Below are positions 3,900 through 34,056 of a stretch of 64,000 bases of DNA, one piece after another. The DNA comes from an uncultured Isosphaeraceae bacterium (GTDB lineage Bacteria > Planctomycetota > Planctomycetia > Isosphaerales > Isosphaeraceae), in contig CAMFLR010000004.1 of assembly GCA_945957605.1 (NCBI GenBank), positions 124,001-188,000 of the forward strand. Direction: 5' to 3'. The position numbers and the translations under genes were made by a program. Positions within the stretch are counted from its first letter, which is position 1, and the number at the start of each line of letters is the position of its first letter. The notes beneath the pieces were generated by a model that was not told the origin of the DNA, did no database searches, and saw nothing but the letters and a program-made list of their open reading frames with translations.

Positions 3900-4457
3900 A
3901 TGAAGTTCCTCAGCGCAATTCTCGACGGCATGCTCGATCGCTCTCTCGATGAGTTGATCGGTGCAGTGGCCATCGCAGGCATCATCGCCCTTGTGGCGGC
4001 CGCCGTCTTCGCGATTGCAACGCGTAAAACTCCCACGACGCCAACTTTTGTCGGTAGCCTGGCGCTGGCTGCGGGCGTGATCAGCATGATCCTTGTCGCT
4101 GGATATCTCAAGTACGTCGAAAGCAGGGATAGCTCGCGTAACTTTGTTAACGGACCGAGAATGCCACCTTGGCCTGCCGGCGCAATGGCACGACCTCCCA
4201 TGCCTCCTTGGCCCATGCCGACGTCTGGCGTCCATTTTCTCATGAACATGGACGAGAATCACGACGGCAAAGTGAACACGGAAGAGGCGACGCGATTCAT
4301 CCGAGCGGCCGATAGCGATGGTGACGGATTCGCCAATCGCCAGGATATCGATCGGATGATTCAGGCGCGGTTTCCGCTGGCATTCAAATCGCCAATGCCG
4401 CCGATCGTACCACCTTCGCAACCAAAGGTTGAAAGTACGACCGAACCCGCCAAGTGA
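3900..4457 (+). CDS. EF-hand membrane protein
   Basis: A 185-residue protein. A good Shine-Dalgarno (GAAGGAG) lies 8 nt before the ATG. Two hydrophobic segments near residues 20-40 and 55-75 should anchor it in the membrane, followed by a Pro/Met-rich linker (PPMPPWPMP). Two EF-hand loops come next: DENHDGKVNTEE near residue 117 and DSDGDGFANRQD near residue 138, both with correctly spaced Asp/Asn/Gly ligands. This suggests a calcium-binding protein exposed on one face of a membrane. The tail is Pro-rich. It follows the CotH/cytochrome gene and may be co-transcribed with it. Specific role unknown. Confidence 0.8.
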   Translation: MKFLSAILDGMLDRSLDELIGAVAIAGIIALVAAAVFAIATRKTPTTPTFVGSLALAAGVISMILVAGYLKYVESRDSSRNFVNGPRMPPWPAGAMARPPMPPWPMPTSGVHFLMNMDENHDGKVNTEEATRFIRAADSDGDGFANRQDIDRMIQARFPLAFKSPMPPIVPPSQPKVESTTEPAK

Positions 4458-26313: not shown

Positions 26314-27459
26314 TCACCTCAATGCGCACGCCGTGACGATGTCGTTGCGCGCGGCCCAAGCGGCGACGTCGCCGCGGGTGATCGCTGTCGCCATGAGGTC
26401 AGGAAATTTGTCGGGACTGCATGCGAAAGACGGAATTCCCAGCTCCGCCAGCGCGGATGCATTGTGCTGGTCGAAACAAGGCGCACCGCTATCATTGAGC
26501 GCGAGCAAGCAAACCGTTCTGACTCCCGCCGCAGTTAGATGAGCTAGTCGCGCAAGCATCTGACGCGCATCCCCACCTTCAAAAAGATCAGTGATCAACA
26601 CCAGAATCGTTTGATTGGGACGCGTGATGATCTGCTGGCAATACGCGATCGCGCGATTGATATCGGTTCCACCACCGAGCTGAGTACCGAAAAGCAGCTC
26701 GACCGGGTCGCGCAGTTCTTCCGTAAGATCGACGACAGCGGTGTCAAACACGACCATACGCGTGCTCACGGCGCGAATCGACGCCAGCACCGCGCCAAAA
26801 ATTCCCGAATAAACCACACTCGTGGCCATCGATCCGCTCTGGTCGACGCAAAGCACGATATCGCGAAGGCTACCCCGTTTGTTGCCGAAGCCGACGAGCC
26901 GGTCGGCAATGAGCGTTTTGCGATCGGGTAAATAATTGTGCAAATTCTTGCGAATTGTGCGCTGCCAGTCGATCTCTCGGAGTCTTGGCCGGTTTGATCG
27001 CGTCGCGCGATTCAAACTACCGCGCACAGCCTGTACGAGCGGGTTATGCAACTTGCGTTCGAGTTCCTCGACAACCTTTCGCACCACTGCGCGAGCCGTC
27101 TCGCGCGTTTTCGCAGGAATGACCCGGCTTAACGACAGCAAAGTGGCAACCAAATGGACATCGGGTGAGACGCTTTGCAAAAGCTCTGGTTCAAGCAACA
27201 TCTGCTGAAGGCCCAACCGCGTGAACGCATCGCGCTGCATGACCTGGACAACCGACGCGGGAAAGTATTGACGAATATCGCCGAGCCAGCGATTGACGTT
27301 GGGCGATGATTTCCCTAAACCTGCAGTACGTTCGCTGTCGTAAAGAGCCGCGAGCGCGTTGTCCATCCTGGCGGCATCTCCGGACAGATCGCCGCACGAC
27401 TCATCAGCCGCCTGGCCCAGAATTAGCCGCCAACGCCGCAGCCGATCTGCTTCAGTCAT
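26314..27459 (-). CDS. CoxE-like VWA domain protein (last gene of MoxR/SWIM cassette)
   Basis: A 381-residue cytoplasmic protein without signal peptide. The N-terminal 190 residues are helical and basic. A VWA domain starts at about 198 with an intact MIDAS (D206-Q-S-G-S), then LGGGTDINRA and LVLITDLFEGGD. The layout matches CoxE-type VWA proteins that pair with MoxR AAA+ ATPases. Its ATG overlaps the stop codon of the DUF5682 gene by 4 bp (ATGA), showing tight coupling. By analogy with CbbQ/CbbO and RavA/ViaA pairs, it likely delivers a target to the MoxR ATPase encoded upstream. The target is unknown. Confidence 0.85.
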   Translation of the reverse strand: MTEADRLRRWRLILGQAADESCGDLSGDAARMDNALAALYDSERTAGLGKSSPNVNRWLGDIRQYFPASVVQVMQRDAFTRLGLQQMLLEPELLQSVSPDVHLVATLLSLSRVIPAKTRETARAVVRKVVEELERKLHNPLVQAVRGSLNRATRSNRPRLREIDWQRTIRKNLHNYLPDRKTLIADRLVGFGNKRGSLRDIVLCVDQSGSMATSVVYSGIFGAVLASIRAVSTRMVVFDTAVVDLTEELRDPVELLFGTQLGGGTDINRAIAYCQQIITRPNQTILVLITDLFEGGDARQMLARLAHLTAAGVRTVCLLALNDSGAPCFDQHNASALAELGIPSFACSPDKFPDLMATAITRGDVAAWAARNDIVTACALR

Positions 27460-29792
27460 CGTGCGACTCCCAGAATTCGGGCCAAAATGGGCAAAACCCG
27501 CGCGGCCCGATCCATGTCGACCCTCGTTTCGACCGCAACGCGTTTGCCAGCCGACGACTGTTCCGATGCCTTCAGGTTCTTCACCTTCTCGCCCATCGTC
27601 CGGCGCTCGGGTTGCGTAAAATTCGCAAACGCGCGTCGAACAAGCGGCAAGATCTCGTCAAATGTTTCCGCGCTCAACTCGACTAGCCAGCGATCAAGCG
27701 CTTGCCAGAGCGCATCACGATGAACGACCAGCAGACCACTTCCGCGGAGCATACCCTGAAGCCACGACGTTGCTTGCAACGGGGGCGAAACCGGCGAGAG
27801 CTCGAGCCTCGTACGCCGGTGCAATTCGTCGTCGTCGATCTTGCTGGCTTCGAGAAGTTGCCTGCACGCGAGACCGCGAATCAGGGCATGAGCCGCGTCA
27901 TCATCCATGAGCGACGCGAGCAACGATAACCACTCTTCGTGAAGCACGTCGAATTCGAGCAGTTCGAGACTCTGCTGCACATTGTCGATACTCGAGGCGA
28001 TTTCGAAGGCCGCATCTTCATCAATCGATCGACACGCCAGTGGCAAACCAACAACGATCCGCTCAAAGAATCCGGAAATGATCGGCCGCAACCGCTCGGT
28101 ATCAACCTTGCGCACATCGCTGTAGCGTGCGACGCGTGCCAGCGGCGGAAGCGCATTTGCCAAGTGGCGAACGTCAGCCGAAACTGCCGCGACCGCCTGA
28201 AGACGCGCGAGAATATGTTCGAGCGCAAGTGGCAGATCTGCAACGAGCACTTCAGCAAGTAAACTCGTAAGAGCCGGCAGTTCGTTCGTCTTTTCCGCAC
28301 GATCGATCGCGAATCCCGATGCGGCCCGTTCGACCGTCGTGCCCCAGACCGACATTTCAATCAGGCGAACTACGAACTCAACCTGCCACTTGAGCTGCCA
28401 GAGCTCATGAAAACTCCCAGACTTGCCGCGCGTCTCGGTTGGCTCGCCCCAGAGGATTTGCATCAGCCGCAGGCGATGAAGCAATCGGCTGCGATTACGA
28501 TCGGTCTCGTTGCGAAGGTCGAGATCAAGCGGCTTGATCTCGGTCGTCGGCTTCAGTCGCAGCGATTTTTGCAAGGCTTCCAAGTCGCGCTGAAGCGGAA
28601 CGCTGGGGGCGTCGGAGGGAACGGTGCCCAGCCGTTCGCCGATTTCGAGTCGTTCGCGAATCAGGCGCAGGGGCGCGGGATTACCATTACAGAGCGTGGC
28701 AAGCATCGCGTCGTTCAACTCGGCATGTCCGACGAGCGGCAGTCCACGCATTGCCGCGAGCGCTTCGCCAAGCCGCACTGCTTCGATCACCGTTGCAGAC
28801 GACGCGTCAATGTCCTCTTCACGCATCAGGCGCGCGGCCGTTGCGACCCATCGCAAAGCCGCCGTGCGCGGAGTTTTCCACAAATGTTCGTACCACCCTG
28901 GTGATCTGACCCCCGCGCCATAGCCGCTCTGATATGACAGCCGCGAATAGGTCCAGGGTGTCCAGGTCGCGTCGACTTTTTCCTTGTGAAGCGATTTGAG
29001 TAAGTTCGCGTCAGACGTGCTCCGCTCGCGTTTTGCAAGCGCGGGCACGTGCCATGCACCGCAGACGACCGCGATGCGTCCGAACCCCTCGCGTTCGGCC
29101 TTGCGAATCGTTTCACGCATGGCGGCCTCACGCTCAGGTTCGAAGTCTCGAGCGCGATATCCAGAAGCAGACTCGCGAGCGGCACGCAGTTCCGTCATTG
29201 CTTCCGCGATACCTTCAAACAGTCCCGCTGGATCGATTCGCTGCTCGATCTGATGTTCCCACCACAACTCGCGGTCGCTGTATCCGGCGGCCATTGCCAG
29301 CATTCCGAGCGGATCGTCGTCGAGTGCGACATCCTCGGTCAATTCCTCTTCGAGCTTCGTCTCGTCTGAGACGGCTTCATCGAGCGGCTTGTCGTCGATT
29401 ATTTCAACCGCCTCTGGAGTGGCGTTCTTCGCCTCTTCAATCGCTTTGGCCAGCGCATCGACTCGCGTTTTCTCCATCGCCAATCGATTTCGCAACGGCA
29501 GGTCCATGAATCGAACGGGAATACTTCGTTTCGTGCCGTACTGCAGCGCCTGCCATTCCGGAGAGAAGATCGCGAAGGGGTAAAACACGCCGCGCTGGGG
29601 ATCGTCGGTCGGATAAACCAGCAGGGCTACTGGCGGCACAAGTTCTTGCGAGGCAAGGAACGTCAGCAACTGCTCAGCATCGGGAGGCCCTTCGATGAGA
29701 ATCGCATCGGGCTCGAGCGTTTCGAGCGCGCTCAGCAGACTTCGCGCGCATCCTGGGCCGTGGTGTCGAATGCCGAAAAGATGAACGGCCAT
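27456..29792 (-). CDS. DUF5682 protein (TraB/ChaN/TIKI-like fold)
   Basis: A 778-residue soluble protein. Its N-terminal 300 residues show the spaced motifs of the TraB/ChaN/EreA superfamily: HLFGIRHHGPG (His10-His11), ILIEGPPDAE, a conserved-type Arg/Glu pair in REAAMRETI, and VVCGAWHVPAL (second His). These are the residues thought to bind metal or form the active site in that superfamily. An acidic insert lies at about 125-165. The C-terminal 450 residues are helical with no domain I recognise. GAGG lies 7 nt before the ATG. It sits between the MoxR ATPase and the VWA gene. A hydrolase role is inferred from the fold, not shown. Confidence 0.8.
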   Translation of the reverse strand: MAVHLFGIRHHGPGCARSLLSALETLEPDAILIEGPPDAEQLLTFLASQELVPPVALLVYPTDDPQRGVFYPFAIFSPEWQALQYGTKRSIPVRFMDLPLRNRLAMEKTRVDALAKAIEEAKNATPEAVEIIDDKPLDEAVSDETKLEEELTEDVALDDDPLGMLAMAAGYSDRELWWEHQIEQRIDPAGLFEGIAEAMTELRAARESASGYRARDFEPEREAAMRETIRKAEREGFGRIAVVCGAWHVPALAKRERSTSDANLLKSLHKEKVDATWTPWTYSRLSYQSGYGAGVRSPGWYEHLWKTPRTAALRWVATAARLMREEDIDASSATVIEAVRLGEALAAMRGLPLVGHAELNDAMLATLCNGNPAPLRLIRERLEIGERLGTVPSDAPSVPLQRDLEALQKSLRLKPTTEIKPLDLDLRNETDRNRSRLLHRLRLMQILWGEPTETRGKSGSFHELWQLKWQVEFVVRLIEMSVWGTTVERAASGFAIDRAEKTNELPALTSLLAEVLVADLPLALEHILARLQAVAAVSADVRHLANALPPLARVARYSDVRKVDTERLRPIISGFFERIVVGLPLACRSIDEDAAFEIASSIDNVQQSLELLEFDVLHEEWLSLLASLMDDDAAHALIRGLACRQLLEASKIDDDELHRRTRLELSPVSPPLQATSWLQGMLRGSGLLVVHRDALWQALDRWLVELSAETFDEILPLVRRAFANFTQPERRTMGEKVKNLKASEQSSAGKRVAVETRVDMDRAARVLPILARILGVAR

Positions 29793-29842
29793 GCTTAAGC
29801 CTCGACGGGAAGCAGGTCAAACCGACGACTATTCCCGCCGAA

Positions 29843-30964
29843 TTACAACACTTCGCGGCAGGCGCGATAAAGATCCTTCCAAGTGTCGCGCTCCTTGACG
29901 ACCGTTTGCAAATACTCGAGCCAAACAACCTTGTCTTGCACGGGATCTTTTACGATCGCCCCGGTCATCCCCGCGGCGATATCGGCGGCCGTGAGCACGC
30001 CGTCGCCGAAGTACGCGGCAATCGACATTCCGCCGGCCATCACGGAAATCGCCTCTGCCGTGCTGAGGGTTCCCGACGGCGATTTGATCTTCGTTTTGCC
30101 ATCGATCGTCAAACCGTCGCGCAGCTCGCGGAAGATTGTCACGACGCGACGGATCTCATCGAGTGCGGGCTTTTCGGCGGGCAATTCGAGCGCACGACCA
30201 AGCTGAGACACGCGACGCTCGACAATTTCAACTTCGTCGTCAAACTTGTCGGGTACCGGCAAAACGACGGTATTAAACCGTCTCAATAGTGCGCTCGAAA
30301 GCTCGTTGACCCCCTTGTCGCGATTGTTGGCCGTCGCAATCACGCTAAAACCCTTGTTCGCCTGAACCTCGGTGTTCAGCTCGGGAATTGGCAGCGTCTT
30401 TTCCGAGAGGATTGTGATGAGCGAGTCCTGCACGTCGCTGGCGATGCGCGTTAGTTCTTCAACCCGAGCGAGTTTTCCATCGCGCATCGCACGCATCATT
30501 GGGCTGGGGACCATGGCGTCGAGCGATGGACCTTCGGCGAGAAGTCGCGCGTAGTTCCAGCCGTAGCGAAGCGCCGACTCATCGGTGCCGGCCGTGCCCT
30601 GGATGAGCAGTGATGAATTGCCCGAAATCGCGGCGGCAAGATGTTCGCTCACCCACGACTTCGCCGTGCCTGGCAGACCGTAGAGCAGGAGCGCGCGGTC
30701 GGTGGCGAGCGTTGCGACGGCAATTTCGATGAGTCGATCGTTACCGATGTACTTGGGAGTTACGTCGAACCCGTTTTCAAGCTTTCCGCCGGTGAGATAG
30801 ATTTTTACTGCCCAGGGCGAAAGCTCCCAATTTGGCGGCTTCGGCCGTTTGTCAATCAGCCGTAATGCAGCGAGTTCTTCAGCGAACTCATGCTCGGCAT
30901 GACGGCGCAGGACCGCACTCGCATTCTGGGAAGCGACCGCAGTTTCGGGTTTTGACTTGGCCAT
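29843..30964 (-). CDS. MoxR-type AAA+ ATPase
   Basis: A 373-residue AAA+ protein. Walker A is G-L-P-G-T-A-K-S at 96-103. The Walker B region reads LARVEEL, with Glu-Glu in place of Asp-Glu, followed by SDVQDSLITILSEKTLPI. Sensor 1 is in VIATANNRD and the arginine finger lies in LSSALLRRFN. The lid follows. MoxR ATPases act as hexameric chaperones that remodel a partner bound by a VWA protein; here the VWA gene is two genes downstream. There is a 43-bp gap to the upstream DUF5691 gene. The first 45 residues are a charged helical extension not typical of small MoxR proteins. Confidence 0.88.
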   Translation of the reverse strand: MAKSKPETAVASQNASAVLRRHAEHEFAEELAALRLIDKRPKPPNWELSPWAVKIYLTGGKLENGFDVTPKYIGNDRLIEIAVATLATDRALLLYGLPGTAKSWVSEHLAAAISGNSSLLIQGTAGTDESALRYGWNYARLLAEGPSLDAMVPSPMMRAMRDGKLARVEELTRIASDVQDSLITILSEKTLPIPELNTEVQANKGFSVIATANNRDKGVNELSSALLRRFNTVVLPVPDKFDDEVEIVERRVSQLGRALELPAEKPALDEIRRVVTIFRELRDGLTIDGKTKIKSPSGTLSTAEAISVMAGGMSIAAYFGDGVLTAADIAAGMTGAIVKDPVQDKVVWLEYLQTVVKERDTWKDLYRACREVL

Positions 30965-31007
30965 GATCTGTGTACTCCGACCTAATTACTCGGCGAGAGA
31001 GATGATT

Positions 31008-32609
31008 TCAAAGTGCCTCGTACAGACGCTTTCGCAGGCGAATCGAATCTTGAAACGACTCAAGGAGCTCGTGCCAGTAGTCGTAGCCGCTCTTTTCGTC
31101 GCGTGAGTGCGGTGAACGAAGCGCGTCATCGAAACACGCACAATGAAGCCGAACTGCGGCCGCTATCGCGCCGTTGCGCCAGTTCGCCGATGGGTACGAT
31201 TGTGTGCTGGTCGAGCCGTAGTTCTTCCACAACCAGTTCAAAAAGACGCGGCTGAACTCCTCGCTCCAGATACCCGATACGGCACCGAGTGCGGCATTCA
31301 GATCTGCAGCATCCGAGTACGCCCCAGCGGCGAGGATTTTCATCAAGCGCGGTTCGGCGTCGACCGGTGGCATTACAGCAAGAATGTCGTCCAAAAAATC
31401 GGGAGGCGATTCATTCGGCTTCTGCTCGCCGCGCTGCCACGCAAAATCCCAGATCGCTCGCATCCAGTCTTCGGCGTGAAACAAAGTCGCCGCCTTAGCG
31501 ATGGCTTCGTGAAATAACGCAGCGTCCTCAATATGAGCCGACGCCTCAAGAATTTGCATCGGCGATACGCCCGAAATCTCCTCCCAAAATTGCGGCTTTA
31601 CCCGCGATACGACCTGAAGAAACCACCACGCACGCTCCCCGGTCCCGGTAGGCGGCTTCGCTTCAATGCCGTCTGGAATCCATTCTTTGGGTAAGGTCGC
31701 TGGCAAGGTGATTTCCATTCGAGTGCCGGACTCTTTGCCTGCCACTGGCGCCCTCAATATTGAGCCAATTCCCGGTGGCCCCGACTCAATTCGTACCATT
31801 TCCTTTGCGCGTTCTCGCATCCGACGAGCCAGATCCGAACCATCAATTGTCGCCAACGCTTCTTGCGCTTCACTCCGAACGCCGGCGCTGCGATCTTTCT
31901 GCGTTTGCTCGAGGAACGGAATGTCATCGGCATCGAGCGCAACGCAAAACGCCTCCAAGAGTCGAGTTCGCGCATCGGCCTTTTCGACATTCCAAACGCC
32001 GGACAGCCACTCTCTTGCCTTTCCGCGATCAAGCTTCCGCGCGAGCTTGAGCAACTCTGCACGCGAGTTCAAATCACCTTCGAGCCAAACCGTTTCCGCG
32101 TCGTCGGGCAAACGGTCAACCGTTTCCGCCGAATCAACATGATGCCGCGCCCATTGCCAGCCTTCGTTGAACTGCGCCAGCCAACGCCCACGCTCGCCAA
32201 TCACTCCGCGAACAGCCGAGCGAACATCGCGGCGATTCGAGTGATCGAGCACGCGCGGAAGCAGAGCAGGGGGCAGTACGTAATTCGCGTCGTGAATCGC
32301 CGTAAGTGATCCAATCAAAAGTTCATAAGCGTTTAGCGATCGGTCCAGCAACTCCGCCACGACCGCGGACGCCGCAGGTGAGCAAATTCGACGCGTCTCC
32401 TCCGGGCTCGGCGCGGGAACTTCTGGCGCCGAATCCGGGACGAATCCCGCGCGATCGTGCACGAGCATCGCACCCGCCGACAACAGCAATCGCCGTTCGG
32501 GCGAAAGCTCGTTTCGGGCGTCAACGATTGATGCAGCGGGATGATCGAGCGGCTCTTGCGGCCCCGATCGCGCCGTCCCAACGATCGCGCGTTGCACAAT
32601 CGCGTTCAT
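31008..32609 (-). CDS. DUF5691 helical-repeat protein
   Basis: A 533-residue soluble protein with no signal peptide. It is all-helical, resembling HEAT/ARM-type repeats, for example RAELLKLARKLDRGKAREWL and RDVRSAVRGVIGERGRWLAQFN. The opening motif (AIVQRAIVGTARS) matches my memory of DUF5691, a family found beside SWIM-domain proteins. It could act as scaffold or substrate adaptor for the ATPase encoded next. Its ATG overlaps the stop codon of the SWIM gene by 4 bp, so translation is coupled. No catalytic motif is visible. Confidence 0.75.
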   Translation of the reverse strand: MNAIVQRAIVGTARSGPQEPLDHPAASIVDARNELSPERRLLLSAGAMLVHDRAGFVPDSAPEVPAPSPEETRRICSPAASAVVAELLDRSLNAYELLIGSLTAIHDANYVLPPALLPRVLDHSNRRDVRSAVRGVIGERGRWLAQFNEGWQWARHHVDSAETVDRLPDDAETVWLEGDLNSRAELLKLARKLDRGKAREWLSGVWNVEKADARTRLLEAFCVALDADDIPFLEQTQKDRSAGVRSEAQEALATIDGSDLARRMRERAKEMVRIESGPPGIGSILRAPVAGKESGTRMEITLPATLPKEWIPDGIEAKPPTGTGERAWWFLQVVSRVKPQFWEEISGVSPMQILEASAHIEDAALFHEAIAKAATLFHAEDWMRAIWDFAWQRGEQKPNESPPDFLDDILAVMPPVDAEPRLMKILAAGAYSDAADLNAALGAVSGIWSEEFSRVFLNWLWKNYGSTSTQSYPSANWRNGAIAAAVRLHCACFDDALRSPHSRDEKSGYDYWHELLESFQDSIRLRKRLYEAL

Positions 32610-33928
32610 GACGCACGCTCCGAAATCGCAACATAGACGTCGTCAATCACCGCGCCCAGCGGCTCGAATGCGACACCATTCCAGAGTCCGGCGAACGTCG
32701 TCGCCACACCACCCGTCATCGCAAGCATCGTCCAGCGCGGGCTGCGCGCTACTGGCACAGCGAAACCGTCGGCGTCGCATAGCTGCCATGGGCCTGACGA
32801 AACCGGCGCCAAACGCGCATCGGCAATTACGCCAACAGTCCGTTCGATCCAGGGCTGGCAGGCGGTGGCCTCGGCTGCATGCGTCAGCATTTCGGCAATG
32901 CTGGAACCGACAAGCTTACCGCTATAGCGCGGCTCATCTGAGCTTCGTTTCAAGATTTGTGCACGCTGAGGAAAAGCGCTTTCATAAAATGAGATTTCGC
33001 CGTCGATCACTGTCGACGGAACGATCGATTGTGGAAACGGCTGCGTACCAAACGCGAATTGAAGAACGAGTGCAGTTCGCGCAGTAGACAAGCCAAGTAG
33101 CCAGTTTCGCTCGACGCGAATCCGCTCTTCGTCAGTCACCGATTGACCGAGAACAAGCCAGCGATCGTACACTGCTTGCAACGTGCTCGGGGAGTCCAGT
33201 TCATCGACATTCCAGCCGATCATCTGCCGGACGTCGGCTGCAAGGCGAGGATCGAGGCTCGAAATACGGCCGTACGCTTCGGTTAGCAAGCTCAAACGGC
33301 CAAGTTCGCCGAGAAATCGTTCCGGCCAATCTGGGCCCGATGAGACAATTTCGCCAAGACGCTCGACGCGACCAGCCAGTCCCCTTGCCTGCGCATTCAC
33401 AAGCCGTTTGGCCTGATCTTGCCAGAACGTGAGATTGTGACGATCGAGCGCACCGAGACCCCCGCGAACGAGGTCTGCCATCCACAAATCGAGCTGCGAG
33501 ATTCCGTCGTTGACATTAGCGACACGCTTTGCCGCTCGTTTCGCCTGAGCCTCCGTATCGACTGGCTTCGACTCCGCCGCTTGTTGCTTTTCTTCCTTCT
33601 TTTTGGCGGTTTCTGTGCGTTTTTCGAGCCAGCTCGACACCCATTCAGGCGCGGCTCCCTCCGTTACATGGGCGCCGGATCCAGCAAGAAATAAAAGGCC
33701 GAGAACGTGCTTGCAGGGCAGCTTTCGGCTCGGGCATGTGCAGTTGTACGCAAAGGAACCACGATCGATCTTAACTTGATAAAGCGCACTCCCCTGGCAC
33801 TCACCCCAGAGCGATTGAGCGTCGCGACCCGTGCCACGCCAGTCTTTAGGACCGCCCAACTTCCTGCCAGCGGCGAGCGAACTCGCGTCCGGCGCGAGAG
33901 CGGAAATTTGCTCGGCAGTTAGCTCCAT
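32606..33928 (-). CDS. SWIM zinc-finger protein (first gene of MoxR/VWA cassette)
   Basis: A 440-residue protein. GGAGGG lies 5 nt before the ATG. The SWIM zinc finger is at residues 63-74, with C63-T-C65, C72 and H74 (CTCPSRKLPCKH). A charged Lys/Glu/Ala linker (about 100-140) follows, then a helical domain and a C-terminal beta-rich region without a known family. SWIM fingers bind DNA or proteins. As the leading gene of a five-gene cassette it may recognise the target that the MoxR/VWA pair then remodels. The upstream neighbour on the same strand is an LLM oxidoreductase gene 128 bp away. Confidence 0.85.
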   Translation of the reverse strand: MELTAEQISALAPDASSLAAGRKLGGPKDWRGTGRDAQSLWGECQGSALYQVKIDRGSFAYNCTCPSRKLPCKHVLGLLFLAGSGAHVTEGAAPEWVSSWLEKRTETAKKKEEKQQAAESKPVDTEAQAKRAAKRVANVNDGISQLDLWMADLVRGGLGALDRHNLTFWQDQAKRLVNAQARGLAGRVERLGEIVSSGPDWPERFLGELGRLSLLTEAYGRISSLDPRLAADVRQMIGWNVDELDSPSTLQAVYDRWLVLGQSVTDEERIRVERNWLLGLSTARTALVLQFAFGTQPFPQSIVPSTVIDGEISFYESAFPQRAQILKRSSDEPRYSGKLVGSSIAEMLTHAAEATACQPWIERTVGVIADARLAPVSSGPWQLCDADGFAVPVARSPRWTMLAMTGGVATTFAGLWNGVAFEPLGAVIDDVYVAISERAS

Positions 33929-34056
33929 GCCGGCCCTCCATCGCGGCGCGTCGCCTCAGATGCGACGTATGGCCGACATTATGGCGAGCGCGCAACAACG
34001 GTACAAGTGGCCAGTATTTTTTGCGAGTTGAGCGGGAACGACACGACCACAGCGCT

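Follow-up and report, generated by a model that had tools for sequence, protein, structure and literature searches.

A five-gene SWIM–DUF5691–MoxR–DUF5682–VWA cassette in a planctomycete and its possible kinship with the Deinococcus ddrTUVWX genes

The window analyzed here is a 64-kb stretch of planctomycete DNA, and the list of its open reading frames (ORFs) includes a run of five genes on the minus strand that spans positions 26314–33928. In the order of transcription, they encode a SWIM zinc-finger protein, a DUF5691 protein, a MoxR-type AAA+ ATPase, a DUF5682 protein, and a CoxE-type VWA protein. The first gene (32606..33928) specifies a product of 440 aa that is DdrT-like by position (Pfam SWIM, 1.3e-5). 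It is followed by the gene for DUF5691 (31008..32609), a probable helical adaptor of 533 aa (Pfam DUF5691, 4e-107), and by the gene for the 373-aa ATPase (29843..30964; Pfam AAA_5, 6e-36). The 778-aa DUF5682 protein (27456..29792; Pfam DUF5682, 6e-253) is predicted to join a TIKI/ChaN/EreA-fold N-domain to an alpha-solenoid C-domain, and the last gene (26314..27459) encodes a 381-aa VWA protein with an intact MIDAS (Pfam VWA_CoxE, 3e-48). The five domain calls of the initial annotation were confirmed in this way, each above the Pfam cut-off. The tight packing that it described was also found in the sequence: the genes share one strand, both 4-bp ORF overlaps read ATGA, and the spacers are 43 bp between DUF5691 and MoxR and 50 bp between MoxR and DUF5682. 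The anatomy of the five-gene cassette is secure. Its GC content is 58.6%, compared with 57.7% for the window, and the host genome, which measures 8.84 Mb, contains DUF1559 and DUF1501 genes, in keeping with a planctomycete origin. The neighboring genes are ordinary, with one for a luciferase-like monooxygenase upstream of the cassette and, downstream, a response regulator gene in convergent orientation and a gene for a PAS histidine kinase. The operon leader and probable promoter region was placed at 33929..34056 on the minus strand from the sequence and motif scans; a scan for consensus promoters and terminators returned nothing exceeding shuffled controls. Just ahead of the SWIM start, there is an inverted repeat, CGTCGC-N7-GCGACG (33949-33967, minus strand), which may serve as an operator or form a hairpin in the leader.

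The families of the individual proteins were collected by single-sequence searches with the window proteins (n=83 for VWA, 85 for MoxR, and 74 for SWIM); the DUF5682 and SWIM family profiles cross-matched VWA and DUF5691 owing to the fused proteins included in them. The Walker A motif is present in 85/85 MoxR family members and the MIDAS motif DxSxS in 83/83 VWA family members, which upholds the chaperone-type MoxR–VWA core with its MIDAS motif proposed at the outset. The solved chains closest to the MoxR protein are Midasin and NorQ, and a sequence search of the VWA protein against solved structures gave nothing useful. A SWIM finger of the CxCPSxKxPCKH type is found in 73 of the 74 family members, and SWIM domains can bind to protein as well as to DNA. 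DUF5691 had been called a helical scaffold. The sister cassettes of other planctomycetes make this plausible, since they carry a HEAT-repeat protein instead of DUF5691 and are otherwise composed of SWIM, MoxR, DUF5682, and VWA genes.

The full-length model of the DUF5682 protein (pLDDT 84) consists of an alpha/beta N-domain, which covers about residues 1–290, and a long solenoid-type helical C-domain. In Foldseek, this model had no match with E < 0.001 and mostly solenoid-type matches. For this reason, the N-domain was modeled alone from 43 sequences (pLDDT 86.7, pTM 0.84). Its structural matches were Tetrahymena complex IV chain DQ (Z 11.1), ChaN (9.9), HopBA1 (9.0), and EreC (7.8), in a comparison where unrelated folds score about Z 6; with Foldseek alone, the N-domain had no match with E < 0.001 (best E 6.5e-3). 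The Tetrahymena complex IV subunit and HopBA1 presumably belong, like ChaN and EreC, to the TIKI/ChaN/EreA superfamily. Weak Pfam matches of DUF5682 members to TraB_PrgY_gumN (4/43, best 1.6e-4) and to ChaN (one member, 2.5e-4) agree with the ChaN score and with the TraB/ChaN fold suggested earlier for this protein, and the N-domain is therefore predicted to have the TIKI/ChaN/EreA fold. Among 43 diverse DUF5682 sequences, R9, E34, S77-P78-E79, D97, G245, and H248 are invariant, and G7 and H10 are kept in at least 90%. Candidate counterparts of the TraB-type arrangement of two GxxH motifs and a conserved Glu in the window protein are GIRH, E34, and GAWH; some sister families carry another residue in place of the first Gly. 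DUF5682 shares the predicted fold and the conserved His/Glu positions with the TIKI/TraB, ChaN, and EreA-like superfamily but differs from it in having its own long C-terminal solenoid and a constant AAA+ partner. The conserved residues favor DUF5682 being an enzyme and do not favor any particular reaction. Since the TIKI superfamily takes in haem binders (ChaN) and non-protease hydrolases, the fold is no proof of proteolysis.

The cassette is conserved as a unit well beyond its host. A scan of named genomes with the cassette-type DUF5682 as the query returned at least 557 relatives, and the best 80 loci were taken; they belong to Chloroflexota, Planctomycetota, Cyanobacteria, Pseudomonadota, Bacteroidota, Verrucomicrobiota, Acidobacteria, Chthonomonas (Armatimonadota), Actinomycetota, and Trueperaceae. 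Among the loci of named genomes with enough flank, which represent about ten phyla, 51 of 55 hold all five genes together, and the gene order and strand of the window cassette recur in nearly all of the 51 complete loci. The initial annotation would have given up its reading if the five genes were not conserved together elsewhere, and the opposite was observed. Full or nearly full-length DUF5691 occurs in 11 of 246 genomes of the same phylum, and DUF5682 is also present in 11/11 of them, well beyond random expectation (hypergeometric 3e-12, uncorrected for kinship). The distribution of the cassette within the phylum is accordingly patchy. In the phylum of a Trueperaceae metagenome-assembled genome (G246), both families are found in the same 10 of 111 genomes, and at the curated cut-off, none of the 111 has either of them alone. 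The pairwise distances of the five proteins correlate across 72 loci (Mantel r 0.69–0.87). Mean pairwise identity is 72% for MoxR, 63% for VWA, 47% for DUF5682, 39% for SWIM, and 26% for DUF5691, so MoxR and VWA appear to form a conserved motor pair, with the other three proteins being more variable. A tree built from the concatenated proteins does not recover several phyla as single groups, which points to transfer or ancient duplication of the cassette.

Natural fusions and split loci suggest that the five proteins form two subassemblies, SWIM–DUF5691 and MoxR–DUF5682–VWA. SWIM is fused with DUF5691 at L102, L110, L147, and L154, and DUF5682 is fused with VWA at L070, L076, and L078. In a single-contig genome (G024; L066, L067), the SWIM–DUF5691 pair is located 347 kb from the MoxR–DUF5682–VWA trio, and L158 carries pair and trio in divergent orientation. 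The DUF5682–VWA fusions are single proteins of about 1130-1270 aa; at L076 and L078, the fusion adjoins MoxR, and a DUF4132 protein is encoded in the same gene run.

The genome that contains the window has a second DUF5682 locus of the type known from the yeh genes of E. coli (L003 4703-15803; G000:C1). Its order is WGR–DUF4132, MoxR, DUF5682, VWA_CoxE, a 726-aa protein, and an ATP-dependent DNA ligase. The 726-aa protein is without a Pfam match and is taken as YehQ-like by position only, and the ligase has an N-terminal SWIM-like CxC…CxH stretch. The ligase was considered as a general partner and rejected, as its homologues in four other genomes stand without DUF5682, MoxR, or VWA in the stretch read beside each of them (one of the four on a short contig). 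Homologous planctomycete ligases carry a C-terminal WGR domain (L211 13306-14622, L214 3863-5251), and the ligase beside the WGR–DUF4132 protein has no WGR in Pfam; from these sequences, WGR may have moved between the ligase and the DUF4132 protein. The E. coli K-12 locus includes yehI (DUF4132), yehK, yehL (MoxR), yehM (DUF5682), yehP (VWA), and yehQ (SWIM). YehL, YehM, and YehP are adjacent and follow the MoxR–DUF5682–VWA order of the cassette, and a SWIM protein, YehQ, is present as well. Unlike the cassette, the yeh locus is without DUF5691, its SWIM gene comes last, and DUF4132 stands in front; the identity between YehM and the cassette DUF5682 is only ~30% over about half its length. With at least 80% of the query covered, yehLMP DNA was found in 5165 of 5426 E. 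coli genomes (95%), and the yeh locus is core in this species. Several Chitinophagales loci combine the five-gene cassette with DUF4132. The comparison of these sister forms therefore indicates a constant MoxR–DUF5682–VWA core with changing recognition proteins.

An expression phenotype is available for a related operon. In Deinococcus deserti, ddrTUVWX (Deide_18730, SWIM, to Deide_18690, VWA-CoxE) belongs to the RDR regulon and is radiation-induced, from >5- to >10-fold, in an IrrE/DdrO-dependent manner, and the genes are held by further Deinococcus species (PMC5552922). The earlier remark that no experimental function is known for the cassette families was nearly right but missed this induction. 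No published mutant phenotype for the cassette genes was found in the literature. Like the cassette, ddrTUVWX is a five-gene operon that starts with SWIM and ends with a CoxE-like VWA gene. The likeness was judged via the loci of D. taeanensis (L159) and L188 as proxies for the Deide proteins, and the window cassette differs in its planctomycete host and in being without an RDRM operator. In D. taeanensis, the order of the five families is identical, and a single small ORF is added. The operator scans took the RDRM motif as given. An RDRM-like site with 1 of 10 conserved positions mismatched lies 36 to 20 bp ahead of the annotated SWIM start in D. taeanensis, a perfect TTATG-N7-CATAA is found 56 bp before the SWIM ORF at L188, and a site with one mismatch precedes the cassette at L194; the loci with these operators come from genomes of the Deinococcota group. 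At L192, upstream of position 4282, where a clear RDRM is missing, the palindrome TTCTGTTGTAGACAGAA is located 37 bp before the SWIM ORF and is possibly another regulator's site. Depletion of DdrO in D. radiodurans raises the expression of a DUF4132 gene and of a WGR gene (PMC8533742). Both are partner families of the sister loci, DUF4132 in those of the E. coli type and of Chitinophagales. Motif scans found neither a LexA nor an RDRM operator ahead of the window cassette (33929..34056). Upstream of 72 cassettes, neither the LexA boxes known from several phyla nor RDRM and similar palindromes exceeded the whole-locus expectation; a box common to lexA, recA, and the cassette was not found in the genome of the window, and E. 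coli yehI and yehL are not preceded by a good LexA box. With no operator at the window, no excess at the 72 cassettes, and no good box at yehI and yehL, control by damage may be particular to Deinococcus. Without an RDRM operator, the window cassette is a homologue of the ddrTUVWX genes and not a member of the regulon.

The reading that we prefer, though we hold it tentatively and at a little less than an even chance, is that the cassette is a single operon encoding a single machine, equivalent in planctomycetes to ddrTUVWX, and that this machine is used after DNA damage. The cassette encodes a MoxR AAA+ ATPase and a CoxE-type VWA protein, both with intact motifs, together with DUF5682. Known AAA+/MIDAS machines are CoxD–CoxE, NorQ–NorD, and Midasin, in which an AAA_5 ATPase has a VWA/MIDAS partner, as in the cassette; the cassette, in contrast, is linked neither to a fixed client enzyme nor to ribosomes and adds SWIM, DUF5691, and DUF5682. 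By analogy with these machines, the MoxR ring would hydrolyze ATP, and the VWA protein, as expected of its family, would grip a client through its MIDAS and transmit force to it. SWIM and DUF5691 would be the separate recognition or adaptor subassembly that delivers the client, as the fusions and split loci suggest, and DUF5682, going by its modeled fold, would act on, and perhaps cleave, the remodeled client. Judging from Deinococcus, the machine would be used after DNA damage, and its likeliest targets would be protein–DNA assemblies that need remodeling or removal for repair. A DNA-damage role of the cassette is held with moderate confidence, and the cassette probably helps cells to handle damaged DNA–protein complexes. 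Against this explanation speak the absence of a damage-type operator at the window cassette and of any excess before the 72 cassettes, the ability of SWIM to bind protein, the range of functions in the TIKI superfamily, the patchy distribution in the phylum, and the dispensability of the E. coli yeh locus, as the yeh region is absent from the viable reduced strain DGF-298 (PMC10652928).

The cassette might instead serve general protein quality control or stress remodeling with no special DNA link, in which case damage control in Deinococcus would be a local adoption. The lack of a DNA-damage operator beyond the Deinococcus group agrees with this explanation, as does the proposed chaperone role of MoxR proteins (PMC3893208). 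It is nevertheless unlikely, given that ddrTUVWX lies within a radiation regulon and that the DUF4132/WGR partner is likewise damage-controlled in D. radiodurans.

A conflict with invaders, which the initial annotation had also considered, fares no better. SWIM–DUF5691 would sense foreign nucleic acid or protein, and the chaperone would release DUF5682 as a toxic effector. MoxR–vWA pairs are the core of predicted ternary conflict systems, in which the vWA C-terminus bears rapidly exchanged effector domains and the third protein is VMAP, iSTAND, FtsH, or a beta-propeller (Kaur et al., eLife 2020, PMC7159879). The cassette shares with them the MoxR–vWA chaperone pair and a further conserved protein, and its MoxR protein barely passes the cut-off of Pfam bpMoxR, a model from conflict systems (28.8 bits, cut-off 27). 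Several of the proteins solved in the DUF5682 N-domain fold are toxins or effectors, and the patchy distribution and the intermixing of phyla in the tree would suit such a role. In the cassette, however, the third protein is DUF5682 and the gene set is fixed, without effector diversification: none of the 83 VWA family members has a C-terminal extension of more than 60 aa, and Pfam finds just SWIM, DUF5691, and DUF5682 beside the MoxR–vWA pair of the window, with no VMAP, iSTAND, FtsH-type, or beta-propeller partner. In PADLOC 2.0.0, the sole matches were weak ones to DpdE and IetA, located at the SWIM finger and Walker A segments (E 0.001–0.003), and an NCBIfam scan of the cassette gave no meaningful match. 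Placement in defense islands was rejected: among the 77 nearest flanking ORFs, genes for metabolism, regulation, or transport prevail, and a raw tally, with no matched background rate, shows a few PADLOC-type matches, many of which are generic enzymes. Carriage by phages was also set aside, with a single distant match in an unverified record. The sister locus is in 95% of E. coli genomes, and the Deinococcus operon is under radiation control. An anti-invader function is therefore considered unlikely as well. With an unextended VWA, DUF5682 as the third protein, no defense islands, and no meaningful NCBIfam or PADLOC match, the cassette is, with moderate confidence, closer to maintenance than to immunity.

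A maturation factor in which MoxR–VWA, like CoxD–CoxE or NorQ–NorD, loads a dedicated enzyme with a metal or cofactor is quite unlikely: the CoxE-type VWA, NorQ among the nearest solved MoxR relatives, and haem-binding ChaN inside the TIKI superfamily point to it, but no client enzyme recurs beside the cassette, flanking families differ between loci, and a SWIM adaptor and radiation induction would be unexpected.

The cassette links three gene sets, namely the DUF5691/DUF5682 operons of about ten phyla, the core locus yehI–yehQ of E. coli, and Deinococcus ddrTUVWX. The yeh locus makes the machine testable in a standard laboratory strain. A bolder proposal, which we regard as improbable, is that DUF5682 is a new TIKI-superfamily protease, fed by the MoxR–VWA unfoldase with proteins trapped on damaged DNA and selected by SWIM–DUF5691, and that E. 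coli Yeh and DdrTUVWX are one system. If this were true, E. coli and Deinococcus would share a protease-like bacterial AAA+ machine that deals with DNA–protein lesions and has so far been unrecognized as one system. Under the preferred reading, bacterial genome maintenance would gain a new branch, an AAA+ machine that is induced by damage and has a hydrolase-fold subunit.
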